Assembly: GCA_002104905.1 (NCBI GenBank) | Contig: MCFE01000327.1 | Coordinates: forward strand, 30,341 to 94,340 | Direction: 5' to 3' | DNA: 64,000 bases | Source: Basidiobolus meristosporus CBS 931.73 | Lineage: Eukaryota; Basidiobolomycota; Basidiobolomycetes; Basidiobolales; Basidiobolaceae | Shown here: piece by piece, positions 22,450 to 64,000 of the stretch | How positions within the stretch are numbered: position 1 is the stretch's first letter | Layout: each line of letters opens with the position of its first letter | Notes under the pieces: model-generated | What the model saw: only the letters and a program-made list of their open reading frames with translations | Told to the model about the DNA's origin: nothing | Databases searched by the model: none | Program-made: the position numbers and the translations under genes

Positions 22450-24171
22450 AAGCACCCCGATGGTACACCTGGGGCATAGAAAATTCCTACCACTCCAAAT
22501 CAGTCCATTTTTTGCCAATCAGCAAGTATATTGGCTGCAAATGAAATGTGGAATCGATCCCATCATTACCGCCATGCATCCGGGCGGAGTGGAAATGGTG
22601 ATTATCGGGTGGATTGCCAATCGACACTTCGAATGGTGGATAGCAGCAAATGTGCTCCGCAAGCGCGTTGCTGCTTGACCGGAAATAGATGACCCGGCTT
22701 GTGCACCCCTCCAGATGGCCGGATCTTGCTTAGCCCAGGGGGAATCACTGGATCGGTTGGGCTCGAACTCGGCAATGATATCCCTTCAGAGGGTTAGTCG
22801 AGTCACTCAGACCTTCACTCAACCTTAAGTAGTGATGATGAATGAACAGCCTCGGTGTATAGTGGTGTTTAGTTCTGTGAGGCCGCAGTATCAGTTCGAC
22901 CAAGCCGTTGCGGAAATGCCGAGTCACCCTACGCTTTCCCCACCCAAACCAAATTCAAAGTTGATGCACGCATCCAGGCTGGATGATCCCGATGGTCACA
23001 CCTCATCAAATCCGGCACCCCACTTTTCCGGGGATGGTGGACATCAATATATGCACCAAGGTGAGTCAATTGTTGCGATTTGCGTGCGGCAACGTTGCTG
23101 ATACAACCTAGCACACATTCATGGGATGAAGGACAATTCACGAAATGATAAGTCGGGTGGGTTACACCAGTCCGAGCGTCGGCTGGCATCCTGTGGGAGG
23201 AGGGCGAAGCCAGCTTCGGGTAAAGCGCGGCAGGTATGGTGGGAGGAATCTGTTGGTCCATGGTGTCGACATGGGGTTGCTGCCCGGCCTTTCCAAATCT
23301 CCCCCGAGGATGAAGCATCCCGTTGACAAGAGTCTATGCAGGTGACCGTTTACGAAAGGGTGACACCCACCTTTTCCTAGCTGCGATCTAGGATTGATTT
23401 TGGGTGGTTTGGAACTCCGCGAGACAATGTATCGACGGTTCTTTACATTCGGGAACTGGGATTCGCAACATAAATTACGAAATCAATGCTGCTGGATAAA
23501 GGGAGCATCCATCTTGGCCAGGAATGGCAATTGATGGTATGAGAGAATGGTGTGGGTTCACAAAGGGAGAGGAGATACTTTTAGCTGCATGTTGAGCCTC
23601 TCATCTCCAGTGTGATAGGGAGACCCAGCCATGTGGAAACCAGCTCTATACCGGATGACTACCAACACCGAGGAACAGGTTCGTTTGATTAGCACGTTTG
23701 ATTGACCATTGATGTTGGTGTAAGTGAAGCCGAAGGTATCAACCATAGTTCCATAATATACTCGGTTGCTGAGACCCCCTATTCGTTGCATATTATGGCC
23801 TTTCGAGCTGGGTGCGAAGTGCTTGATTGCTGTATAATTTGCGATGGCAGTGGTAGTGAATGCTAACCAGGCCATACAGAGATATACAGAGAGATAAATC
23901 GTTTCGTTTAGCGCTATTGTTATGCGGTGTCACCATAGCACTACTCTACGCTTCCCTGCCTACCAATCAAGCTCGGTCTGCTTCCTAACTAGGTGCTCTT
24001 ATCAGGTACCACTGGAAGACACATTGTATAACCCGGCCACTCGATTGTGCCAGTGACTACCTGTTCTTTGACACCGATGAGTGAGTCTTGGCCATCCGAA
24101 GGGATTCTCCTTAAAAGCCGGGACCAGACGCATACCATCTTGGTAGGTTTCTTACGCTTCACACAATCCTC
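22450..24171. other. No recognisable gene; start of higher-GC single-copy region
   Basis: Base composition changes around 22550 from the AT-rich repeats to a more balanced sequence. Open frames here (for example 22929-23318 on -, 129 codons, and 23558-23875 on -, 105 codons) show no signal peptide or domain that I recognise. A tRNA-like scrap near 22747-22826 is discussed under rejected items. Confidence 0.4.
23558..23875 (-). CDS. Hypothetical protein, 105 aa (doubtful)
   Basis: An open frame of 105 codons in the single-copy region upstream of the first chitin deacetylase gene. The product starts MAWLAFTTTAIANYTAIKH and has a TFGFTYTNINGQSNVLI stretch with alternating hydrophobic residues. 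I do not recognise it. There is no clear signal peptide, and no TATA box decides the start. It could be a small gene, the last exon of a longer one or a chance frame. Confidence 0.25.
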   Translation of the reverse strand: MAWLAFTTTAIANYTAIKHFAPSSKGHNMQRIGGLSNRVYYGTMVDTFGFTYTNINGQSNVLIKRTCSSVLVVIRYRAGFHMAGSPYHTGDERLNMQLKVSPLPL

Positions 24172-25323
24172 ATGAAGTCATTCCATCTCCTGATTATTGC
24201 ACTGGCTGCATTGTCCATCCAGGCCGTTCCTTTGGAGAAGCACGCCAATCTGGCACCCCGTGAGATCAAAGGCTCAACGGCTTCTCCCACCTCGAGTGTG
24301 TCCAGCGTGTACGTATCCCAGAGTCCAACCTCTTCCGCAGGAACCACCTCGCACGCTAGCTCCACCCTAGCACCTGCGAACTCCTCGGCCGCCACCAACA
24401 CCCCCACCCCACCGACCAGCCTCGCCCCGAATGCTTTGAGATATCTCGATGAACAATGCGGGGCCCAATACGGTTCATGCGCACCTGGACTGTGCTGCAG
24501 CCAATGGGGATGGTGTGGATACACTTCGGACCATTGCAACTCAGGCTGCCAGAAGAATTACGGCGCCTGCGACGACAAAATAGAGGCGGAAGTGATTACC
24601 AGATGTACGGCCCCTGGCACGTTTGCCGTGACCTTCGACGATGGACCCAGCGTCCTCACCTCAGGCCTGCTGGACTATCTGGATACGGAGAAGGTGAAGG
24701 CGACCTTCTTCGTCAACGGACTTAACCAGAAGAATGCCGACACGAAGAACCCGATCCTGAGTATCTACCAACTGCAGGATGTGGTGAAGCGGGCCTACGA
24801 CTCTGGGCATCAGATTTGCTCCCACACCTGGGCCCACACTGACCTGATCACCGTCGACGAGGACGAGGCCGTCTACGAGATGACCAGACTCAACTACGCC
24901 TTCACCAAGGTCCTTGGTAAGGTCCCTACCTGCATGAGGCCACCTTACGGCGATACCGACGCCCCCGCGCGGAAGATCCTCAAGCGTATGGGGTACACTG
25001 TGGTCACCTGGAATGTCGACCCTGTGGACTGGGACCCTGCCAACACCATTGATGAGATGTATCAGGAATACATTGGCCAAACCGGATCCACCGACCCCAA
25101 GGTCGGGAGATTCATTTCGTTGAACCATGACGTCTGGAACACCACCGCCGACTTCAGACCTGAGAACTACCCCAAGACCATACCACTTGCCCAGCGGGCC
25201 ATCCAGTACCTCAAGGGCCGGGGCTGGAAGCTGGTGAATCTTGCCGATTGCCTGCAAACCGGGCCCCTCTATCGCGATGCCAACCCATCCGATAGCAGCT
25301 GCGGTGACGAGGATTGCGTCTAA
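24172..25323 (+). CDS. Secreted chitin deacetylase with CBM18 domain
   Basis: A family CE4 polysaccharide deacetylase, which removes acetyl groups from chitin in the cell wall or septum to give chitosan. The 383-aa product has a signal peptide (residues 1-18, LIIALAALSIQA then VP), a Ser/Thr/Pro-rich linker (34-84), a hevein-type CBM18 chitin-binding domain (96-133, eight Cys, CCSQWGWCGYTSDHC), and the NodB domain (about 145-360). All five catalytic motifs are present: TFDDGP (154-159), SHTWAH (217-222), RPPYG (256-260), DPVDW (283-287) and LNHD (317-320), so the metal and catalytic residues are kept. A Cys pair closes the C-terminus (SSCGDEDC). No intron is needed. An AATAAA lies at 25397-25402. 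It is convergent with a paralogue 129 bp away. Confidence 0.95.
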   Translation: MKSFHLLIIALAALSIQAVPLEKHANLAPREIKGSTASPTSSVSSVYVSQSPTSSAGTTSHASSTLAPANSSAATNTPTPPTSLAPNALRYLDEQCGAQYGSCAPGLCCSQWGWCGYTSDHCNSGCQKNYGACDDKIEAEVITRCTAPGTFAVTFDDGPSVLTSGLLDYLDTEKVKATFFVNGLNQKNADTKNPILSIYQLQDVVKRAYDSGHQICSHTWAHTDLITVDEDEAVYEMTRLNYAFTKVLGKVPTCMRPPYGDTDAPARKILKRMGYTVVTWNVDPVDWDPANTIDEMYQEYIGQTGSTDPKVGRFISLNHDVWNTTADFRPENYPKTIPLAQRAIQYLKGRGWKLVNLADCLQTGPLYRDANPSDSSCGDEDCV

Positions 25324-25336
25324 CCCTAACCCTAGC
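25321..25336. repeat. Interstitial telomere-like motif
   Basis: TAACCCTAACCCTAGC starts exactly at the stop codon of the first chitin deacetylase. It is two telomere units in the C-strand orientation, opposite to the TTAGGG repeats at 61-64 kb. Confidence 0.6.
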
Positions 25337-25452
25337 CACCAGAGTGCAGATGATTCTAGGAACCCGGTGGATTCTATATTTATTTCTTAGTAGTTTAATA
25401 AAGGTATCTTGGATATAGCATCGCTTGGCGGCAATGGGTTATTTACAGACGG

Positions 25453-26487
25453 CTAAGGGCACGGGTTGGAACCACACCTTTGGTCCGAGGGGGTGGGGTC
25501 ACGGTAGAGTGGTGGCTGGCCAAGGCACGATGCCAGGTTGGTCAGGCGCCAACCCCGACTCTCCAAGTACTCCACCAGCCTCTGGGCGAGCGGAATGACC
25601 TTGGGGTAGCTTTCGGGGCGGAAATCCGCGGTGGTGTTCCATACATCATGGTTCAAGGAGATGAACTTCCCGAGAGTGGGATCGGCGTTGCCAGCCTGGT
25701 CCACAAACGCCTGGAACATCTGGTCGATGGAGTTCGCGGGATTCCAGTCCACGGGATCTACGTTCCAATTCACCACGGTGTAGCCCATGCGCTTCAGGAT
25801 TTTCAGGGATATGGGGTCGGTGCTTCCGTAGGGCGGGCGTATACAGGTGGGGACTTTGTTGAGAATGGTGGCGAACGCGTGGTTCAGACTGGACACCTCA
25901 TAGGTGATGTTGTACTCGTTCGCCTTGGAAAGATCCACATGCCCCCAGGTGTGAGAGCAGATCTGATGGCCAGCTCTGTAGGCGCGCTGGACCACATCGG
26001 ACAGCTCGTAGATACTCAAGATCGGGTTCAGTGTGTTGTAGCTCTTCCAGTTCAGCCCATTCATGAAGAAGGTGGCGGTCACATTTTTGGCCGCAAGGTA
26101 GTCCAGCAGGCCTGTGGTGAGCACACTTGGGCCATCGTCGAAGGTGAGGGCAAAGGTACCCGGTACGGTACATCCAGTGTTGACCGTGGCCATGGCTCCA
26201 TTGTCGCAAGCCCCGTATTGGGATTGGCAGCCAGTTGCGCAATAGTCGGAGGTGTATCCACAAAAGCCGTACGAACTACAGCAAAGCCCAGCAGCACATG
26301 ATCCAATTCCGTTTCCGCAGGATTGATCCAAATACCGTGGTGTTGTGGTCGTCATTGGGTCAGCTCCCCTCTTTCGATGCCCAACGGCGTAGTCTATCGA
26401 ACTGGATGTCACCGGGATGTATGCGGCGGTGGACAAGCTCACCAAAGCCGAGCATATGGCGATCTGGGGGACTAGCTTCAGTAACAT
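25453..26487 (-). CDS. Secreted chitin deacetylase with CBM18 domain, paralogue
   Basis: A second CE4 chitin deacetylase, with the same domain order as its neighbour but a shorter linker. The start is taken at the second Met (26487), because it gives a clean signal peptide (MLLKLVPQIAICSALVSLST then AAYIP). The upstream Met at 26523 would put 12 polar residues ahead of it. The product is 344 aa. CBM18 spans residues 57-94 (CCSSYGFCGYTSDYC). Catalytic motifs are LTFDDGP, CSHTWGHVD, RPPYG, DPVDW and LNHD. An H(S/T)xxxH zinc triad and the basic Asp are all kept. There are several N-glycosylation sequons (NVT, NIT, NTT). It is tail-to-tail with the other gene, so the 3' UTRs probably overlap. Confidence 0.94.
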   Translation of the reverse strand: MLLKLVPQIAICSALVSLSTAAYIPVTSSSIDYAVGHRKRGADPMTTTTPRYLDQSCGNGIGSCAAGLCCSSYGFCGYTSDYCATGCQSQYGACDNGAMATVNTGCTVPGTFALTFDDGPSVLTTGLLDYLAAKNVTATFFMNGLNWKSYNTLNPILSIYELSDVVQRAYRAGHQICSHTWGHVDLSKANEYNITYEVSSLNHAFATILNKVPTCIRPPYGSTDPISLKILKRMGYTVVNWNVDPVDWNPANSIDQMFQAFVDQAGNADPTLGKFISLNHDVWNTTADFRPESYPKVIPLAQRLVEYLESRGWRLTNLASCLGQPPLYRDPTPSDQRCGSNPCP

Positions 26488-26559
26488 GGTGTCAAATGTT
26501 GAATCGCACTGAAAATGCTGCAAAGCTGAGGAAGCGACCCACCGGTTGAGGCGGGCATT

Positions 26560-29435
26560 TATTTAATTCTCGGACTAGGACCATCAGGCCAGAATGCTAC
26601 GTAGCATGTGGCCACCGATATTAAAACGGTGCCAACTTACCGTATTTGGTGTGCGCTATGCTGGCAACTTGGTATGGGAACGTCCTATCACCGTTCTCCT
26701 TGATGAATCGCTGCATCCATAGCTATACCCGAGCCAACTAAAAATAGTTCCCTCTGATCCAATCAGAGATCCGTTGGCGAGCCAAATGGTTAGAAATTTT
26801 TACGACGATTGCTCAGGATGGCATCCCCAGTACCATGATCTAGCCCAATCGATACGGTATGCATTCACCGTAGACCCCAGAGTCGCATTTGGAAGCAGTG
26901 CGTCTTTGTATTGGGCGGCAACCCAAATCACCACCGCATCGTCCCCTTGCCACATCCGCCCATTGGTCTTCCCAAATTGGGCAAGCGACCATGTACCAAA
27001 ATAGCGCTCCGATTACGAGGCGACTGCGATGCCACAAGGTTGCTGCCCATGGGGCATCTAGGAGTTCGCATTCTCAACGCCAACCGAAAAAAGATCCTGG
27101 CACCATGGAAGTATGGAAGCAGGGTGCCGGATTTGCTATCTTCCATGCATTAGCGTTCCACACGATCGTTGCAGTTCAAGCGCCATCTGCACGCGATATC
27201 TGTACTGATATTGTACAGGACCAGCCTTCCTGTTAGTTGGATGCAAACAAGTCTCTACGTCAGGTCGCTTGGGTATCTCTTTCCCGGGGCAGCATCCGTT
27301 GCAGTAGGATCCGGACGGACTCTCCACAGAGAGCTTCGCATTAGATGAATGTAAAACTTTGTTATCGTGTTTAACGCTTCGGTGGGTACAGTTGGTGGAG
27401 TAATCTCGCCAGGAAACCGTATTTGGCAAATACGTACTCTGGCTAATTGCGGAAGGGTTTGGTGCAGGCTGATTGGGACGCGACGGATCCACATGGTCAC
27501 CCGTTTGCTATCCAACTCTTGTCAGATCCCAAGTCTGTTTGAAGTGAGCTCGTATGGCTCACCAAAACCTCATTGTAGGGTATCCACCAAACAGTGAAAT
27601 TACGAATGGTACGGGGTTCGTGTTGATCCTGAGAACGGAAGCCACACATGCAAATGATGACACTCTAGAATTGAACTAAGCCAGACAGTCAAGTTACACA
27701 GCAAAAACCCCATGCCAACCACCCCTTTGTCACTTTTCCAGGGATTCCCAGATGCCTCCTCTACATCCTATACAAGCGTGTTCCCAGAACGTTTGCTACC
27801 ACAGACACCCAGTTGCTCAGGAGATGCAACACGTCTTGAGCAGGCACTCAACAACCTGGTGCCAGATGTGGTGGTGCTTGGTAGTTAATGGTGGATCCAC
27901 TCTTCCACAGCTTCAAGAACTCATGGTGCAGTGATTCTCAGGAATGGCGGTATTGATAGTGAGAGATTTGGATGAATTTCACAGCGGAGTTACACACCAT
28001 CATTTTACCAAGATGCTTATCTTCCACCTGCCATAAATGGCTCCACCAAGCATAAGAGTGCATGCTTCCAGTGACATAAAATCGTATCAAAAATACAGCC
28101 TAGTCCCAATACCTAGAATGGAAATCAACACCACCGCCAGTCACACCTGGCGACATTCGGTTACTGCTTGGTCAATATGTCTAGCGCCAGAATGGGCCAT
28201 AGGTCTATCTAGGCGTACGGCCCCTAAGATTCAGGAGTTTAACCTTTAAACTTTGCGCATGTCATTTCCATCGATCCATCCCCTTTGGACAAATCAGGCC
28301 CTAGGGCATGCCTCCCATATTGGGATACCCTCCGATAAGCCTGTGAGAGAATTGCTCTTAGCATTGAGTGATGTCGTCAAATTACACATCATGGATCGCC
28401 TGGCGGAGTCCTTTCTTGACGTGAGTCGATGGAGAGGAAGGAATACCCCAAGAGCTGTGATGTCCGTAGACCGTATGCAGACCGAAGCGTGTATATCTGT
28501 CTATCTCAGACCCTCTGTTGATAGTAGTCTGCTTCCACCAAACAAATAAAATGTGTAACATAGGAGCGTTGGAAGGTTCATCGCAGTGGGAAGGGCTGGG
28601 TAGATAGTACTGTATACATCGGCCGATGGCTTCCGGTGTGGAAATTGGTGGCCATGATGGACGCTCAAGTTGAGTGCACAGTTTGCCAGCTGGCCATACA
28701 AACCTCCCGGAAACACGCAGCAGTACTACTAGTCCATACACAGTTTTCCGAAATGTTCATCAACACTGGATCATATACTGGTATGGGCTGTGGTCCGTAT
28801 CGCTTACCTTCAAGATAAGGTACACATCGAGCATTATGGAGGCTAATGACATATCATCATCCATCGTTTCCCAAAATTGCATGATAATTAGCTGGATTCG
28901 CACCGTTGCCTGTAGCAATAAGTGAACAAATGATCGCGATCACTCCCAGCTAACTTGACGGATATCCAATGCGTGCATATGGTTTCAAAGCCCCAACCTA
29001 ACTGCACTACTGCTCGAAGGACGCAAGCTGATACTCCCATTGGTTATCTCCGACTGTTGGGACAGTAAACCGAAAATGGCATACGCACTTGACGCTTTGA
29101 TGTGCATTACCGTTGGAAAGATGCTGGACGCATCTTCCAAGAGCTTGTTATGAACCTGGAGCACCTAGAATTCATCTCTTCAGAGTCTTCGGGGATCATA
29201 GCTTTGACTGCCTGCAGGATGATTATATCCTTGCTATGCCCCAGATGCCTCGTTCGATTCAAATGAGTTCTTGGCAACCCTTTTTAAGGCCGAACCACAA
29301 ATGAAGCACTAACCTGGATAGCTAGATTGGTTTTTAGTTGGGTGCATACCAGTGACAATTATGGATTTCCGGCACCGCGATTTTCCCAAAACTTGTTTGC
29401 CAAGACGTATGGTTCGCGTTAGCTGGTCATTGTCG
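26560..29435. other. Long intergenic region without a recognisable gene
   Basis: About 2.9 kb between the second deacetylase and the esterase. Overlapping open frames occur on both strands around 26.8-27.5 kb and 28.2-28.7 kb, but none has a signal peptide or known motif. A 59-codon frame at 27712-27891 (MPTTPLSLFQGFPDASSTSY...) has no recognisable relative. It is single-copy in this window and shows no transposon remnant. Confidence 0.4.
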
Positions 29436-57029: not shown

Positions 57030-58100
57030 CCCTCTTCTATTCAGCGTACTCGAATGCTTCAAGACTGGGGCCAACTTGATACTTCAAATTCAGGCAGTGT
57101 TCAGATCATCGTACTTTCTGGTAACGGTAACAAACACCTGTTGCAACAGTGGGACATAAATGAAGCAATCGTTGTTTATATGATTCTAATATTATAACTG
57201 GGGTAAAGTAGCTTGCAAATTAAGGTTGTTGATGTTTTGAATTAGTATAGGGTGACTCAATGGTGATATTTATCTTAATATATAGGTTGCCAATCTAAGT
57301 ATTTCTTATCACGGAAATATCTAATCCTCAAGTGCTTGTGAGCTGAGTCTTTGTACGTCTTTTGGTGGCCACTATAGCCATGAGCTGGTGGCTCAGTGAT
57401 GATGATTTGAGGCTTTTGCTGCTTTGACTGATGCGAAATCATATCTATGGCATCAAATTAGTTTAAATCCAATTTTGGGCTGATCTCTACTTGTAATGAG
57501 TGGACAAAACGCTTTGCCCACCGTTCAATAGTTGCTACTGCACAAGATGTGTTTGCTTTATTTTGATATCTCTACCGCTGCAATCCATATACCCTTGATG
57601 TTATGTACCTTGCCTTCAAGCATACACTTGATCTTAACTTGGTTAATCAATGTAGCAATAATGACAGACAAATGTAGTGTATTATAGATCGATTAGATAT
57701 TGTGGTGATTATGAGTCATTAAATCATTAAATTTTCTCAGTGAGATCGCCGATCAGGATGATTCTTGTCAGTGTGTTGGCAGTTGGCTCAACTCTAGTGG
57801 AGGCTCGAATTGCAACACTTACGGCTCCACCGGGAACTGGTTTATCACAAACAAGGTGACAAACTGAATGAGTTATGGTAATTTATTGGATTTGGCATTT
57901 GCCAGTCTACGGGCATGCATCAGTACATTGCGTATCTTCCATAGGCTCAGTGAACTGATCAGCGCATTTATCGCCACACTGAATGTCTTCCATAGATTCT
58001 GTGTACTCAGTATCCTGGTCAGAGCACCCTTCAACACAATGGGTGTCCATTACGGGTGCTGAATACTGGGTGTCTTGTGAGGGCTGAACCATGAGATATG
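57030..58100 (-). pseudogene. Secreted acidic protein family, broken copy (A)
   Basis: Pieces of the tandem family: 57890-58092 (HCVEGCSDQDTEYTESMEDI and a DIQCGDKCADQ repeat) matches the middle of the intact protein. 57290-57480 (RLSSQALEDLDISVIRNT on the opposite sense; minus-strand AHGYSGHQKTYKDSAHKHL) matches its C-terminus. 57030-57150 matches its N-terminal part (VTVTRK and YQVGPSLE). A non-homologous insert separates them. No signal peptide or intact frame remains. Confidence 0.65.
57757..57868 (+). pseudogene. Cysteine-rich scrap
   Basis: A short plus-strand frame, DSCQCVGSWLNSSGGSNCNT and YGSTGNWFITN, ending in a stop. It looks like the end of a small secreted cysteine-rich protein but has no start or signal peptide. 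It lies inside the tandem region and could be a chance frame. Confidence 0.25.
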
Positions 58101-58274
58101 ACTTGTTATAGTGATAGACGTAAGCTTAATAAATAAGAATACTATCAACATTCATTGTCCAAGTTCCAACATTGTGTTTGCAGTATGATAGTTTGCAAAT
58201 TAAATGTGATGTTTCAAGCTAATATATAGTCATTTCAGATGATGTATTTATTCATAATACGTAGGTGACCACTG

Positions 58275-59345
58275 CTAGTATCTACTCCCACCGGAATATC
58301 TGATCTTGAAGTACTTGTGAGATGACCTCTTGTACTTCTTTTGATGACCACCATGGGCACGGGTAGCAGGTTCAGTGATGATGATTTGAGGTTGTTGCTG
58401 TTTAGGCTGATAGAGGGTTTGATCGATGACCTGGGCTTGGTCAAATTGATTGGAGTTCGATAGTGCATCGGCGTTATTGGATGAATGGGCCTTCACATTG
58501 TCCAACAAGGCCTCCCTCGGCTGGATGCCGACTACATTGAAGGCTGGCATACCAGACTCTGAGGAATCTGGTTGGGTTGTAGTATCTTCCATTGAATCAC
58601 CACCCTTAACTTCACCCTCACCCACATTCATATCTTCCTCATCGCCACCGTCTTGTTCAAGTTGATTATCATCTACTGGCTCCGATGCTAATTGTCCTTC
58701 TTGGTAGCAGGGACTAACTTGCTCTCCACACAAATTTTCACCGTGGATTACCTGAGAAGAGCCATCTTCTGTGACAGGAATCGCTTCATCCATAGGCTCA
58801 GTGGACTGATCATCGCAGTTATCACCACACTGAGCGTCTTCCATAGGTTGTGTGTACTGAGTATCTTGGTCAGAGCAACCTTCAACACACTTGGTCTCTA
58901 CTACGGGCGCAGAATACTGCACATCGTGTGAGGGCTGAACCACAGCAATGGGATATGAAGTGCCATCTTCGGAGTGTTCAGCTCCCTTTTGCTTGGTGTA
59001 CTCGGCTGCACTTGCTTCACCTTTTGCTTCGAAGCTGGGGCCTGCTTGATACTTTATGTTGAGGCTCTTGTCACTGTTGGCATTTGCAGTGTTGAGATTA
59101 TCATTTTTTCTGGTCACTGTGGTGAACACCTGTCGCAATAATGGAACTTGGTCATCTGACGGTTTGACGGTGGGTTGAACTTGGGCATTCTGGTAGCAGC
59201 TGTTTGCGTAATGGGAGCACAGTGAACCGCGATATTGGACTCCTCTGTATTCGCGGGCACATGGAGAGGAACAAGCTATTGGAGCAGCTATGATAGCACT
59301 CAGAGAGGCAAGGCCAAGGATTGCTGTAGTAGTAGTTGCACGCAT
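58275..59345 (-). CDS. Secreted acidic protein with repeated C-x3-C motifs, intact copy (B)
   Basis: The 356-aa product is the only intact member of a tandem family. Start taken at 59345, because it gives the signal peptide MRATTTTAILGLASLSAIIA (cut near AAPIA) and lies ~45 bp after a minus-strand TATATATA at about 59384-59391. An in-frame ATG at 59375 is too close to that box. Four Cys lie at 25-50. Two related C-x3-C segments at 153-157 (CVEGC) and 173-177 (CGDNC) share the DQ-x-Y-x-PMED motif. The middle is highly acidic (residues 140-265), and the end is basic and Tyr-rich (KKYKRSSHKYFKIRYSGGSR). It may bind cations or the wall, but I do not know the function. Its relatives flank it on both sides. 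Confidence 0.75.
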   Translation of the reverse strand: MRATTTTAILGLASLSAIIAAPIACSSPCAREYRGVQYRGSLCSHYANSCYQNAQVQPTVKPSDDQVPLLRQVFTTVTRKNDNLNTANANSDKSLNIKYQAGPSFEAKGEASAAEYTKQKGAEHSEDGTSYPIAVVQPSHDVQYSAPVVETKCVEGCSDQDTQYTQPMEDAQCGDNCDDQSTEPMDEAIPVTEDGSSQVIHGENLCGEQVSPCYQEGQLASEPVDDNQLEQDGGDEEDMNVGEGEVKGGDSMEDTTTQPDSSESGMPAFNVVGIQPREALLDNVKAHSSNNADALSNSNQFDQAQVIDQTLYQPKQQQPQIIITEPATRAHGGHQKKYKRSSHKYFKIRYSGGSRY

Positions 59346-59654
59346 CTTCAAGTTCAACTGAATACATTGCTTCATGCCCGAGGGAATATATATAGCATGG
59401 TAGGCTATATAATATGGTTTGGATATCGATGGAGGCAACAGTGTAAATATGCTAATGAATTACGATATTGCTAGATTGTAAGTGTGCTTTTGAACAGTCA
59501 TCAATCGTCCAATTGCTGTGTGGTAGCTGGTTATCATGATGAATGCATGATAAATAAATAAAAATACTATAAACACTCGTTGTTCAAACTCCAATATTAC
59601 GGTTGTAGTACGGCAGCTTGGTTGCAAATAATATTGAGATTTCAGAATCAGTAT

Positions 59655-60822
59655 TTATTCATACCGCATTGGTGACCATTGCGAGTATCTGGAATATCTG
59701 ATCTCCTGTACTTCTCTTGGAGTCCACCATGACCACGGGTAGCTGGCTGTGTGATGCTGTTTAGGCTGATAGAAGGTTTGATTGATGGTCAACCGGATTG
59801 GCGTTCGTAGTTCATCAGCATTATTGGATGAGTGGACCTTCACATCGTCCAACAAGACCTGCCTCGGCTATAAAGCCTGGCGGTGTTGTAGTGTCACCCA
59901 TATTGTTATCTTCCGCATCTGGCTGATAGTTATATTCAGGCGATTGTATTTTCATTTGAAAGATTCAAACCCATAACATTGTTATTTCTTTTTCTTCTGA
60001 CGGGTGATTAACTCATTATGTCTATAATGCTCACTACATCTGTAAACACCGTTGGTTCACTGAGAGTGAAACGATCATTGCCTTTACTCATTTAGCTGTC
60101 GTGAGTTGAGTGACAGATAAATGTAGTGATTGATTGGTTTGACATTGTGGTGATAATGAGTCTTTGGAACATCCAGTTTTCTCATTGAATGAGCAATGGT
60201 GATTTCTTAGATATGGGATTTGCCAGTTTACGGGCACGCATCAGTACATAGGCTCAATGGACTGATTAGCGCAATTACCCCCACATCCTGCATCGTCCAT
60301 AGGTTCTGTGTACTGCATATCCTGGTCGGCGCAGCCTTCAACACATTAGATGACAACTTCAGGTGCTGAATACTGAGTGTCTTGTGAGGGCCAAGCCATG
60401 ACAATGGGATACGAAGAACCATTATTCGGAGTGTCCAGCTCCCCTCTGCTTAGCGTAATCAGTGGCACTAGCTTCACTCTCAGTTTTAAGACTGGGGCAT
60501 GCCTGACGCTTTGTATTGAGGTTATTGCCACTGTTGGCATTTGCAGCGTTCAGGGTTGTCGTTCTTTCTAGTAACGGTGGTGAACACCTGTCACAATAAC
60601 GGAACCTGGACATCTGACGCTTCGACAGTGGGTTGAGACTGGGAATTCTGGAAGCGGTCATTTGCATAGCGGGACCACGGCGAACTACAATATAAGGCTC
60701 TTCTGTATCCGCGTGCATATGAAGAGAAGCAAGCAATTGGCGCAGTTGTGGTAGCATTTAGAGAGGCAAGGCCAATGATCGCTGTAGTCTTCAAGTACGG
60801 CTGAAGACATTGCTTCATACCT
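59655..60822 (-). pseudogene. Secreted acidic protein family, broken copy (C)
   Basis: N-terminal part at 60228-60822: GMKQCLQPYLKTTAIIGLAS, then IACFSSYARGYRRALYC, parallels copy B's MKQCIQLNLK and IACSSPCAREYRGVQY. The middle is similar to AKRQACPSLKTESEASATDY. C-terminal part at 59655-59855: LDDVKVHSSNNADELR and YQPKQHH, with the GGSRY-type tail lost. The acidic middle is deleted between the two and frames are broken. It is oriented like copy B and lies ~300 bp upstream. Confidence 0.75.
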
Positions 60823-60885
60823 GAGAAGATACACATCGTGTAGTACTCTGGACGTTGATCCATATGCATCCGCATACTACCCACT

Positions 60886-61102
60886 GGCTACTCCAGATAC
60901 CTATCCACTACTGGGTAATGCGCAGACCGGTTCCACACAAGATGCCCAGGCACTTTCCCACTCAAATCAATATGATCAAGTACAGCTAGTAGATCAAACG
61001 CTGTTCCAGCCCCCCGAGCCCACATTCGCGCAAAGGTATTTTCTGAATGAGGATCAAGACACTGACTCAAGTGAGGGCAAAGATAAGACATTATGTACAC
61101 GC
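60886..61102 (+). pseudogene. Secreted acidic protein family, inverted C-terminal fragment (D), ending in telomere repeats
   Basis: The plus strand encodes ALSHSNQYDQVQLVDQTLFQ, which matches ALSNSNQFDQAQVIDQTLYQ of copy B, then NEDQDTDSSEGKDKTLCTR. The reading frame then runs straight into TTAGGG at 61103 (LGLG). It is the only family member on the plus strand. The N-terminal part is missing. Confidence 0.8.
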
Positions 61103-61121
61103 TTAGGGTTAGGGTTAGGGG
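61103..61121 (+). repeat. Telomere repeat block 1
   Basis: TTAGGGTTAGGGTTAGGGG. The G-rich strand reads towards higher coordinates, which is the orientation of a chromosome end on the right. Confidence 0.95.
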
Positions 61122-61772
61122 TCTAAATTCTTTTATTGAATCTGATCAAGTATAGTAATACCATTTCAACTTGATTCAAGTTGAGTAGTGCAAATTGTAC
61201 AAAGAAAATATATCTATGGTAATGTGAAGGTAAATATACTGCTTAAGTTGAGTTGAGTTCTGAAAAGAAATTTGTCAACAAATCAGGCTAGAAAATGAAG
61301 TAAAGCTGGGAGTTATTGAAAGCAAAGCACCAAGGGAAAGTGTAGAGCTATACTACCACTTCCTGGAAGGTAGGGATCTCACAGGAAGGCAGAAGCTCAG
61401 GTCTAATTGCAGATATGATAGCAGAATGTCTCTGGATGAGCTCCCTTTGTTTGTGAAATTGGAACAAAGATTGGGTATCTTTGAACCCAAAGCAGCTCTC
61501 TGCATGACAGAAGTAAAAATACCTGCTACAGTAGGGGCACTTGGAACCCAAGCAAAGTGTTTTCATTCTCCACCTTATGGCCTGGAAGGCAAAGAAGGAA
61601 CTCCTGATGTAAAGGGATATGTCTGCTTCACTATGGGAATGTCCACTCTCATGAGAAATAGGTCCAACTCTGTCTTTTGAGCTAGCAAATCTGGTGATAT
61701 TCTCCAACTTCCTTTTATACATTGCTACAGAGAGAGGAATATGCTCTCTAGGTGGCTTGGCACTGTTGGAGT
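61122..61772 (-). mobile_element. Telomere-adjacent element E1 (5'-truncated)
   Basis: Its minus-strand 3' end is AATAAAAGAATTTAGACC joined to CCTAACCC (block 1). At its other end it stops at telomere repeats near 61773-61781. It carries the C-terminal ~140 codons of a frame (61348-61770; CPYCSRYFYFCHAESC and a following H-x-KQREL part that looks like a zinc-binding motif) with a stop at 61348 and ~225 nt of 3' UTR. The layout is that of a 5'-truncated non-LTR retroelement. I do not recognise the protein. Confidence 0.55.
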
Positions 61773-61781
61773 GGGTTAGGG
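61773..61781 (+). repeat. Telomere repeat remnant
   Basis: GGGTTAGGG, at the junction between element E1 and the 3' tail of element A1. Confidence 0.7.
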
Positions 61782-62045
61782 GGAGACAGTCACCATCAGG
61801 TGAAATCTTTATTTCAGTTGAAACAAAGAAGCCAGCACTACCATTGTAGCATTGATACAAGAGTGTGTAGCTGAGGGGAATTTGTAGGTAAGTTAACAAG
61901 AAGTGATGATAGTTCTTCAGTGCTCAAGACACTGTTCAGTGGGAAGGGGGGTAGCAAGAGAGGTAAGAATGACTTGTGAACAACATTAATGAGGGGAATG
62001 TGATAAGGACTGATATTCAACATAAAGGGAGTGTGCTGCTGCAGA
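61782..62045 (-). mobile_element. Telomeric element family A, copy A1 (3' part)
   Basis: A ~260-bp piece, 3' end left. It contains the end of a frame, INVVHKSFLPLLLPPFPLNS (61838-62040), followed by ~58 nt of 3' tail with AATAAAG, the hairpin TCACC-ATCA-GGTGA, and CTCCC joined to CCTAAC. Copies A2 and A3 share all of this. A1 is cut on its right by TTTAGGG and element B1. Confidence 0.75.
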
Positions 62046-62052
62046 TTTAGGG
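62046..62052 (+). repeat. Telomere repeat remnant
   Basis: TTTAGGG, between copy A1 and the tail of B1. Confidence 0.6.
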
Positions 62053-62573
62053 GGAGGAAAGTCACCAAGTGGTGAAATCTTTATTTACTTATGACAAGTA
62101 TCTAAAGAAGCCATGTTAATCTGAAGTAATTCCTAGAAAGCTAGGTCTGAGATATATGTTCCTGGTAAGCCAGGTCTGATAGTTGAGAAGCTGAGTGGTA
62201 CTGTATTTCCTAGTTAGCTAGGTCTGAGAGAGGTTTCCTGGAAAGCCAGGCCAGAGAAGTGAGAATCTGAGTATATCTGAGGTGAGTTGTACTGATTTGC
62301 GGTAGCTGAATTGTGGCCGGAATGGCCAGTAGACTGGGGGAACTGAGAGGAATATCTAGGCGATCACTGGCCAAATTTACTAGGCAAATCTGACCAATTG
62401 GCATTTCAAGGATTTCAGCCAATCAGAGCCTTTACTTTGCCCGATGGTTGATCAAGCCATCTCCCAATGAGCACACATCAATTTATTGATCAAATTTTGT
62501 TGGATCCAGGATTTGAACCCACAACCATGGGTATGGAAGGGTTAGGGATAACCACAAGGCTAAGTGTTCTTGG
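62053..62573 (-). mobile_element. Telomeric SINE-like element, copy B1 (full length, ~520 bp)
   Basis: Read on the minus strand from 62573. The first ~70 bases are tRNA-like, with an A box TAGCCTTGTGG (62562-62552) and a B box GGTTCAAATCC (62519-62509), separated by 32 bases. The body holds four 14-nt hairpins (62237-62250, 62209-62222, 62161-62174, 62132-62145). The tail is AATAAAG, TCACC-ACTT-GGTGA and a C-run, the same kind of end as family A, joined to telomeric CCTAAA. There is no coding capacity, so it depends on another element's enzymes. It is intact in form compared with B3. Confidence 0.8.
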
Positions 62574-62579
62574 TTAGGG
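62574..62579 (+). repeat. Telomere repeat remnant
   Basis: TTAGGG, between the head of B1 and the tail of B2. Confidence 0.6.
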
Positions 62580-62906
62580 GGAGGAAAGTCACCAAGTGGT
62601 GAAATCTTTATTTACTTATGACAAGTATCTAAAGAAGCCAAGTTAATCTGAAGTAATTCCTAGAAAGCTAGGTCTGAGAGATATCTTCCTGGTAAGCCAG
62701 GTCTGAGAGTTGAGAAGCTGAGTGGTACTGTATTTCCTAGTTAGCTAGGTCTGAGAGAGGTTTCCTGGAAAGCCAGGCCTGAGAAGTGAGAATCTGAATA
62801 TATCTGAGCTAAGTTATACTGGTTTGCGGTAGCTGAATTGTGGCTGGAATGGCCAGTAGACTGGGGGAACTGAGAGGAACTTCTGGGCAATCACTGGCCA
62901 TATTTA
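62580..62906 (-). mobile_element. Telomeric SINE-like element, copy B2 (5'-truncated)
   Basis: It matches B1 from the tail through all four hairpins and the gccggaatggcc-type block, but stops at 62906 in telomere repeats. The tRNA-like head is absent, as expected of incomplete reverse transcription. Confidence 0.8.
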
Positions 62907-62908
62907 CT

Positions 62909-62946
62909 AGGGTTAGGGTTAGGTTAGGGGTTAGGGTTAGGGGGGA
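62909..62946 (+). repeat. Telomere repeat block 2
   Basis: AGGGTTAGGGTTAGGTTAGG followed by GGTTAGGGTTAGGG: about six units with slippage variants, the longest run in the window, again in the rightward orientation. Confidence 0.9.
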
Positions 62947-63189
62947 GACAGTCACCAACAGGTGAAATCTTTATTTCAGTTGAAACAAAGAAGCCAGCGC
63001 TACTGTTGTAGCTTTGATACAAGAGTGTGTAGCTGAGGGGAATTTGTAGGTAAGTTAATAAGAAGTGATGATAGTTCTTCAGTGCTCAAGACACTGTTCA
63101 GTGGGAAGGGAGGTAGCAAGAGAGGTAAGAATGACTTGTGAACAACATTAATGAGGGGAATGTGATAAGGATTGATATTCATCATATTT
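62947..63189 (-). mobile_element. Telomeric element family A, copy A2 (3' part)
   Basis: It holds the coding end 63000-63185 (PYHIPLINVVHKSFLPLLLP, near identical to A3) with its stop, then the AATAAAG and TCACC-TGTT-GGTGA tail. It is 5'-truncated at 63189 against TTAGGGTTAGGG. Confidence 0.8.
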
Positions 63190-63201
63190 TTAGGGTTAGG
63201 G
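63190..63201 (+). repeat. Telomere repeat remnant
   Basis: TTAGGGTTAGGG, between A2 and the tail of B3. Confidence 0.75.
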
Positions 63202-63644
63202 GGAGGAAAGTCACCAAGTGGTGAAATCTTTATTTACTTATGACAAGTATCTAAAGAAGCCAAGTTAATCTGAAGTAGTTCCTAGTTAGCTAGGTCTGAG
63301 AGAGGTTTCCTGGAAAGCCAGGCCTGAGAAGTGAGAATCTGAATATATCTGAGCTAAGTTATACTGGTTTGCGGTAGCTGAATTGTGGCCGGAATGGCCA
63401 GTAGACTGGGGGAACTGAGATGAATTTCTGGGCAATCACTGGCCAAATTCACTAGGCAAATCTGGCCAATTAGCATTTCAAGGATTTCAGCCAATCAGAG
63501 CCTTTACTTTGCCCGATGGTTGATCAAGCCATCTCCCAATGAGCACACATCAATTTATTGATCAAATTTTGCTGGATCCTGGATTTGAACCCACAACCAT
63601 GGGTATGGAAGGGTTAGGGATAACCACAAGGCTAAGTGTTCTTG
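63202..63644 (-). mobile_element. Telomeric SINE-like element, copy B3 (two hairpins)
   Basis: Full at both ends, with tRNA-like head (A box 63634-63624, B box 63591-63581) and the standard tail. It lacks ~75 bp that holds two of the four hairpins: tcctag is followed directly by ttagctagg, as if recombination or slippage joined hairpins 1 and 3. Confidence 0.8.
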
Positions 63645-63651
63645 TTTAGGG
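63645..63651 (+). repeat. Telomere repeat remnant
   Basis: TTTAGGG, between the head of B3 and the tail of A3. Confidence 0.6.
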
Positions 63652-64000
63652 GGGGAGACAGTCACCAACCGGTGAAATCTTTATTTCAGTTGAAACAAAG
63701 AAGCCAGCGCTACTGTTGTAGCTTTGATACAAGAGTGTGTAGCTGAGGGGAATTTGTAGGTAAGTTAATAAGAAGTGATGATAGTTCTTCAGTGCTCAAG
63801 ACACTGTTCAGTGGGAAGGGGGGTAGCAAGAGAGGTAAGAATGACTTGTGAACAACATTAATGAGGGGAATGTGATAAGGATTGATATTCATCATAAAGG
63901 GAGTGTGCTGCTGCAGATATTGCTGCCAAAGGTCTGTCAAGTACTTCAGGTAGGCCAGCTTGGGTTTTTCTGACTTCAGAATAAATTCAGCAAACTTCTT
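63652..64000 (-). mobile_element. Telomeric element family A, copy A3 (runs off the window)
   Basis: The longest family A piece. The frame stays open from the window edge (64000) to a TAG at 63710. Its last ~95 codons read KFAEFILKSEKPKLAYLKYL, TDLWQQYLQQHTPFMMNINP, YHIPLINVVHKSFLPLLLPP and end LVSKLQQ. The 3' UTR is 58 nt, with AATAAAG and the hairpin TCACC-GGTT-GGTGA. I do not recognise this C-terminus; a retroelement protein is likely from context. The rest of the gene lies to the right of the window. Confidence 0.75.

Follow-up and report, generated by a model that had tools for sequence, protein, structure and literature searches.

We analyzed a stretch of 64,000 nucleotides (the window) from the fungus Basidiobolus meristosporus CBS 931.73 (contig MCFE01000327.1, positions 30,341 to 94,340 of the forward strand), which ends in an array of retroelements joined to telomere repeats. 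The array occupies positions 61103-64000 of the window and, by direct reading of the plus strand, runs (TTAGGG)3, E1, A1, B1, B2, A2, B3, A3. All seven units lie on the minus strand with the 3' end leftward, each abutting TTAGGG; this had been claimed in the initial annotation, and the direct reading bears it out. Because the window stops exactly where its contig (C566, 94340 bases) stops, the last unit, A3, cannot be extended rightward. Families A and E are long interspersed nuclear elements (LINEs) and family B resembles a short interspersed nuclear element (SINE); three further families, C, D and F, are considered from other loci in the genome.

The array begins with the telomere repeats (TTAGGG)3 at 61103..61120 on the plus strand (direct reading and motif search), which form its proximal boundary. 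Immediately past them starts E1 (61121..61774, minus strand, as are all element features given here), a 5'-truncated copy of family E whose tail is unlike that of the other units and lacks the TCACC/GGTGA hairpin. E1 retains the C-terminal 133 amino acids of the second open reading frame (ORF2) of its family, including a CPYC..H..C zinc-knuckle-like motif (61351..61749; 59 matches, the longest open frames being of 1027 amino acids). Comparison within families identifies A1 (61784..62046) and A2 (62946..63186) as 5'-truncated copies of LINE family A, B1 (62055..62573) as a full-length SINE B with the A box and B box of RNA polymerase III (Pol III) at 62509..62562, and B2 (62582..62907) as a 5'-truncated SINE B. 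B3 (63204..63644), by direct reading and comparison, reaches the 5' end with about one internal repeat unit fewer than B1. An imperfect telomere tract between B2 and A2 (62908..62942, plus strand) is the longest internal one in the window and the longest among the 89 that we measured. A3 (63656..64000) ends with the contig and contains the C-terminal 96 amino acids of the family A ORF2, the reverse transcriptase protein (63713..64000). Its stop TAG is at 63710-63712, 54 nucleotides ahead of the C-run; family A does end in an open frame, as had been stated.

The six units other than E1 carry hairpin tails, at 61788, 62060, 62587, 62950, 63209 and 63660, all found on the plus strand and all with TTAGGG(G)n or TTTAGGG(G)n as the left flank. 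In A3, tail hairpin 1 (TCACC loop GGTGA, 63662..63675) was located by pattern and fold, and hairpin 2 (UCUUUGUUUC AACU GAAAUAAAGA on the element strand, 63678..63701) by direct reading and fold. The motif TTAGGGTTAGGG has four matches in the window, at three places, all inside 61103-63201, and none in 100 shuffles.

We searched the whole genome with the tail pattern and found it at 1127 places (1048 + 79), while the reversed control found none. At 1023 of the 1127 places, TAGGG lies 3-11 nucleotides ahead of the tail, a count in which one tail could in principle figure twice if two TAGGG fall in range. Neither many internal copies without TTAGGG nor a full family A element without reverse transcriptase appeared in what we examined. 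The tails that could be placed on large contigs are also terminal. We measured distances for 94 of 100 listed tails (of the 1127) and set aside the 62 on contigs of about 17-20 kb, which are uninformative on terminal location. On the 12 contigs longer than 100 kb, all 32 of 32 tails lie 0.4-18.4 kb from the end faced by the 5' side of the element, where 10% would be expected within 20 kb.

The enzyme, which had been presumed to lie outside the window, is encoded by long family A copies elsewhere in the genome; these carry a reverse transcriptase and a probable endonuclease domain of the apurinic/apyrimidinic endonuclease (APE) type. The last 96 amino acids of A3 gave 150 scored matches (from 1254 candidates), of which 29 lie in 922-amino-acid frames and one in a 951-amino-acid frame. 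The 922-amino-acid ORF2 is present in four long family A stretches, and the longest copy (locus L072) also has a 523-amino-acid ORF1 frame upstream. ORF2 matches the Pfam family RVT_1 in both family A (1.5e-24) and family C (1.3e-20). In a PDB sequence search with LINE ORF2, run as a test of families A and C, the best match was LINE-1 ORF2p (2.3e-12); with the predicted model of family A ORF2 (mean predicted local distance difference test, or pLDDT, 78), the best Foldseek match was full-length human LINE-1 ORF2p (E 4.7e-26, TM about 0.44). APE-type endonucleases have the catalytic residues N, E, Y, D-N, D and S-D-H. In an alignment with 17 other sequences, the N-terminus of family A ORF2 has the motifs N, Y93, D126, N128, D171 and S200-D201-H202 in place; at the position where a metal-binding catalytic Glu is usual, A, C, P0001 and P0003 have Asp, and the 15 remaining sequences that extend to that column have Glu. 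Exo_endo_phos_2 scores 21.1 bits in family A ORF2, under the Pfam cut-off of 27.4, and the Pfam search of family C ORF2 gave no endonuclease family. For a zinc ribbon in family A ORF1, Pfam returned only weak matches, below the cut-off.

Among four intact copies of family A ORF2 (six pairs), differences are mainly synonymous, with a ratio of nonsynonymous to synonymous substitution rates (dN/dS) of 0.12-0.16, which indicates purifying selection on ORF2 among these copies. In the database, the nearest relatives of this ORF2 are five proteins with identities of 48-80%. Family C is a second LINE with an ORF2 of 949 amino acids (15 of 101 matches lie in a 949-amino-acid frame, one of them with a reported stop inside the match); the ORF2 proteins of A and C share 47-50% identity, and their synonymous sites are saturated. 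To judge from these features, A and C are autonomous two-ORF LINEs with a probable APE-type endonuclease and a reverse transcriptase.

That E1 might belong to another family had been suspected, and it does: E is a different APE-type LINE with its own tail, of which a longer copy lies in locus L079. It has an ORF1 frame of 236 amino acids and an ORF2 of 1027 amino acids with the APE-type endonuclease at the N-terminus. Its ORF1 resembles that of family A only in a weak stretch (57 amino acids, 30%, E 2e-05), and its tail, although different, is attached to TTAGGG likewise. The family E ORF2 at L079:325-3405 ends in the CPYC..H..C zinc-knuckle-like motif, and many of its listed relatives have one TGA in the matched region.

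SINE B, at 521 nucleotides, has no long frame and no TTTT. Scored against the Pol III box consensus, it has an A box starting at position 14 (10/11) and a B box at position 57 (11/11), and 0 of 5000 shuffles were as good. ARAGORN reported 0 genes in the SINE B head and Rfam no tRNA match. Of the earlier description of B as a frameless unit with a tRNA-like head, the lack of a long frame and the Pol III boxes therefore stand, while ARAGORN and Rfam do not bear out a tRNA. By these sequence features we class B as a SINE-like unit with Pol III boxes and no protein.

Families D and F each consist of one ORF1-like frame directly ahead of the tail, and the next unit has the same orientation. Their proteins align with about residues 352-508 of family A ORF1, at 30% identity for D (E 2e-17) and 36% for F (E 2e-21). 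A search with the D protein gave 145 matches. Of these, 74 are of D type, at 67-100% identity, and 71, at 46-49%, are taken as F type, 69 of the latter without an internal stop; dN/dS, from one pair each, is 0.17 for D and 0.36 for F. A relative of the D protein occurs in Basidiobolus ranarum (60% identity over 99%). The model of D (mean pLDDT 70) contains a long helix and a strand-helix-strand-strand-helix-strand domain at residues 126-192, a predicted topology that fits a coiled coil plus a domain like the RNA recognition motif (RRM). Compared with the PDB, this model had no match with E below 0.001. The D and F frame may act as Gag. In locus L071 (about 1160-1440), TTAGGG recurs every 103 nucleotides upstream of a D frame, as if the 5' region were a tandem repeat with telomere units.

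Families A, B, C, D and F share one tail, in the order TGGCTTCTTT, a hairpin UCUUUAUUUN...N'AAAUAAAGA, UCACC...GGUGA and the C-run, in all about 58-78 nucleotides in the aligned sequences. The initial annotation had recognized a common 3' tail of about 35 bases in A and B; the sharing is correct, and the length is greater because the second hairpin and TGGCTTCTTT extend it. By tail score, SINE B is nearest to C, then to F, D and A, so the proposal that B borrows the tail of family A gives way to a closer relationship with family C. Both hairpins are present in the fold of one tail per family, with extra outer pairing in A and an internal loop in B. The pair closing stem 2 is C-G, A-U or G-C (arms only, six strings), and 97.8% of cells pair. 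Tail recognition is described for stringent LINEs (PMC5135761), and the A/C enzyme most likely recognizes the shared tail RNA. Several observations weaken the structural argument. Stem 2 shows modest covariation: its score is attained by 17 of 500 shuffles, and its one pair with changes on both sides by 148 of 500. The arms of stem 1 never vary among those counted, so that stem gives no covariation; half of stem 2 is invariant as well, the structure was chosen from the same sequences, and the tail in L056/L073 has an altered stem 1, for all of which reasons covariation supports the structure only moderately. Loci L040, L041 and L073 (about 3450) carry another type of tail (TTAGGGTTCTAGTGCTTTATTG...) on telomere repeats, and further sequences follow TTAGGG in L011, L068 and L072.

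At the junction of the two frames in family A, ORF1 ends GCC TGA CTA and ORF2 continues in the same frame. Families A and C have an identical 13 bases, TCTGCCTGACTAC, at this point despite the saturated synonymous sites of ORF2. We searched the family A junction with the stop left open and found 131 places, with TGA in all 100 listed, although these are young copies and the pattern can match only junctions that are unchanged elsewhere. The first Met of ORF2 does not occur before residue 142 (A) or 59 (C), and the predicted model of family A ORF2 has the first endonuclease strand starting as early as residue 3; a start at AUG would therefore remove some or most of the domain. UGA CUA is a readthrough context described for fungi and animals (PMC4207609) and for humans (PMC4359377). 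Because ORF2 lies in frame behind a single UGA CUA stop, ORF2 of A and C is, on this sequence, most likely made as an ORF1-ORF2 fusion through stop-codon readthrough. The stop of the ORF1-only families D and F is TAG without CUA. A stimulatory RNA structure 3' of the UGA was not convincing (folding energy z -1.7 for A and -1.3 for C).

Readthrough is not the only way to such an ORF2, and two observations speak against it: an in-frame near-cognate CUG (CTG) 12 nucleotides past the ORF1 stop in family A could serve as an alternative start, and P0001, the closest relative with a complete N-terminus, is listed with an initial Met here. Production of ORF2 by reinitiation, or from a non-AUG codon immediately past the ORF1 stop, has precedents in the stop-start coupling known for SART1 and proposed for L1 (PMC5972666), as well as in the overlapping ATGA stop-start of LINE E in the same genome. 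Nonetheless, neither A nor C has an AUG near the stop, both keep ORF1 and ORF2 in one frame, and the hexamer that they conserve is the known readthrough context cited above; we therefore regard such a start as unlikely. In the open-licence literature we found no paper linking UGA CUA stop-codon readthrough with a retrotransposon, and among the papers listed there on non-LTR elements with readthrough, no title or abstract opening describes such use by a LINE.

The telomere tracts at the tails are short. We measured 89 distinct junctions, those that remained after removal of sites with flanks under 60 nucleotides on the left or 40 on the right, of repeats of the same 40+40 nucleotides, and of tails off the pattern AGTCACC-4 nt-GGTGAAATCTTTATT (and so of C, D and F). 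Most of the loci were supplied by the first 30 tails in the list and the top 30 protein matches, not by a random draw. Ahead of the G-run, the telomere tract is 1-32 nucleotides long (median 6), and 21 of the 89 junctions lack even TTA before the G-run; the junctions are in telomere phase. By comparison, terminal telomere tracts at six contig ends are 182-236 nucleotides long. These six are from nine loci that reach a contig end; the others are L027, which has TTAGGG with odd last bases (scored 0), and L037 and L047, which end in other sequence. At the opposite side of the elements, 56 of 69 5' breakpoints (26/32 in A, 27/32 in B, 3/5 in C) pass into telomere-type sequence or into the tail of the next unit, in a set that omits matches running to the locus end and so hides long copies, above all of A. 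The host also has the telomerase RNA-binding domain PF12009, in two pieces on contig C880 (40.5 and 34.7 bits, cut-off 25), one of them reported with a TAG inside, possibly an intron. In locus L075 (1-1458), a Ty3/gypsy-type pol frame stops at short telomere repeats bearing a B tail, after which come B and A units and not the rest of the gypsy element; this junction looks like a broken and healed chromosome end.

We read the array as part of a retroelement consortium that builds onto chromosome ends, by end priming followed by telomerase capping, and consider this reading slightly better than an even chance. In the proposed sequence of events, the C-run of the tail would pair with the GGG of TTAGGG, and a telomere that is very short or eroded would prime reverse transcription with its 3' end; the element would therefore come to lie with its 3' end toward the centromere and its often truncated 5' end outward. 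The 5' end would then be capped by telomerase or by the next element, and repeated rounds would yield one-way stacks. The enzyme of the A and C LINEs would serve five tails: A, C, the ORF1-only D and F, and SINE B. End priming on a short telomere fits the one-way stacks, the 3' ends that face the centromere, the tiny telomere remnants and the 5' ends capped by TTAGGG, and we think end priming of reverse transcription, taken by itself, moderately probable. Other findings count against it. A and C keep an endonuclease domain, which would be superfluous for pure end priming; a cut at the inner edge of the telomere, or later contraction of the tract, leaves equally short tracts; and 13 of the 69 breakpoints are not telomere-type, some of them resembling places where other elements inserted later and at least one, in B3, being an alignment break only.

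The endonuclease domain is in frame in four A copies whose ORF2 is under purifying selection, and together with the telomere phase of the junctions it would be accounted for by telomere-specific target-primed reverse transcription, in which the APE endonuclease nicks double-stranded TTAGGG, as in TRAS/SART, and the tracts contract later by slippage, breakage and re-healing. Such contraction is plausible, since interstitial tracts of more than 4 repeats are reported as extremely rare in Pyricularia (PMC8381367); FoTeR 3' tracts are typically of 3-7 repeats, up to 8 (PMC12857005). However, random insertion into telomeres of about 200 nucleotides predicts many tracts longer than 32 nucleotides, and 0 of 89 exceed that length; tails without even TTA before the G-run (the 21 junctions above) also speak against it, and SART1 is reported to require at least three repeats (PMC7265360). 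We judge this explanation rather unlikely. The initial annotation had proposed a telomere-targeted LINE with a tail-sharing SINE inserted in telomere repeats; the genome supports the pair of elements, but does not demonstrate insertion into long telomere repeats, because the tracts before the tails are mostly shorter than two repeats.

Two other explanations were weighed. Amplification of MoTeR arrays has been described in telomerase knock-outs (PMC8381367), and the stacks here could likewise owe their spread chiefly to recombination among chromosome ends (break-induced replication or telomere attrition-induced replication), not to new retrotransposition. With repeats dropped beforehand, though, the 89 junctions still show many different neighbors, G-run lengths and truncation points, and the dN/dS of 0.12-0.16 in family A ORF2 needs repeated passage through function; such an origin is improbable. 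The many truncated copies (19 of 32 B rows, including the alignment break B3, and 31 of 32 A breakpoints, in 3-kb loci that hide full-length A) might even suggest dead subtelomeric repeats with no present role. This we find hardly credible given the 29 of 150 scored A matches in 922-amino-acid frames, the 69 of 71 F-type matches free of internal stops, and dN/dS well below 1 in the pairs compared. Returning to end priming, a more far-reaching version can be offered, tentatively and with more doubt than belief: a second, retroelement-based repair of chromosome ends beside telomerase, in which element RNAs with the C-run (perhaps a copied CCCUAA) would act as a telomerase-like template on critically short or telomere-free ends, and in which a readthrough LINE polymerase, ORF1-only helpers and a SINE passenger would be bound by one two-hairpin tail.

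Telomeric retroelements are known in insects and several fungi. tRNA-type SINEs that share a tail with a stringent LINE have Pol III boxes at the 5' end, the LINE tail at the 3' end and no frame; SINE B differs from these in being attached to telomere repeats and in having a tail common to five families, ORF1-only ones included. Penelope-like elements at bdelloid telomeres have short telomeric stretches at their junctions. These endonuclease-less elements are telomere-associated too (PMC3846280), but they belong to another polymerase group and have no endonuclease. SART1 and TRAS1 of Bombyx mori resemble A and C as LINEs tied to telomeres; they are telomere-specific, and their repeats are TTAGG. 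SART1, with its two ORFs and AP-like endonuclease, inserts relative to the G-rich TTAGG strand (PMC7265360); the junction-bearing strand here is the G-rich strand as well. Whereas SART1 ends in poly(A) (PMC7265360) and uses a UAAUG stop-start (PMC5972666), A and C end in the two-hairpin tail and C-run and have the in-frame UGA CUA. The 3' poly(A) of TRAS/SART was not found here, the tails ending in a C-run joined to CCCTAA, and the excerpts of the SART1 sources compared describe no tail-sharing SINE or ORF1-only partner.

MoTeR, FoTeR and Cnl1 are likewise LINEs attached to fungal telomeres, and they too have truncated copies and short interstitial tracts of TTAGGG. They form one clade with restriction-like endonucleases (PMC12857005). 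We rejected membership in the MoTeR group, since A, C and E carry an APE-type endonuclease at the ORF2 N-terminus in place of a restriction-like one. HeT-A, TART and TAHRE of Drosophila share with the array one-way head-to-tail stacks, a polymerase-less element beside polymerase-bearing ones, and addition at the chromosome end (PMC5537684). D and F, provided that their frame acts as Gag, correspond to a HeT-A-like gag-only element in one-way stacks with polymerase partners. Drosophila, however, is a telomerase exception (PMC5537684); here the host is not without telomerase, as PF12009 is present, TTAGGG caps occur and a SINE takes part. In enzyme type the closest system is TRAS/SART, in host kingdom and layout it is MoTeR/FoTeR, and in division of labor HeT-A/TART. 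APE-type LINEs, ORF1-only partners, a SINE, one shared tail and TTAGGG caps are combined in none of these systems as described in the source excerpts. Among the open-licence papers listed, one mentions Basidiobolus, telomere and retrotransposon together, and its subject is DNA methylation in Mucorales; absence from this literature is weak evidence.

With this set, the known telomeric retroelements would gain a fungal lineage whose chromosome ends are shared by telomerase, APE-type LINEs, Gag-only elements and a SINE. The RNA feature recognized by the LINE can be tested, as five families keep the two hairpins and differ elsewhere; so can retroelement end healing alongside telomerase, in one genome, and the setting of the ORF1 to ORF2 ratio by a LINE through UGA CUA readthrough.

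Left of the array, positions 57055-61102 of the window hold a tandem gene family, partly decayed, whose intact copy (58275-59459, minus) had no Pfam match at E 0.001. A forward frame at 60788-61126, a piece apparently related to this family, reaches the telomere repeats at 61103. Further away, at 24115-26562, two chitin deacetylases with a chitin-binding domain lie end to end on opposite strands, and the first has its nearest named relatives in Basidiobolus (B. ranarum 79%, B. meristosporus 76%). Enzymes of this kind had at first hinted at a chytrid host, an idea abandoned in view of those relatives and of the 60% relative of the D protein in B. ranarum. On another contig, of 345 kb, (TTAGGG)3 occurs deep within the sequence, far from the ends (G000:C1:184730).

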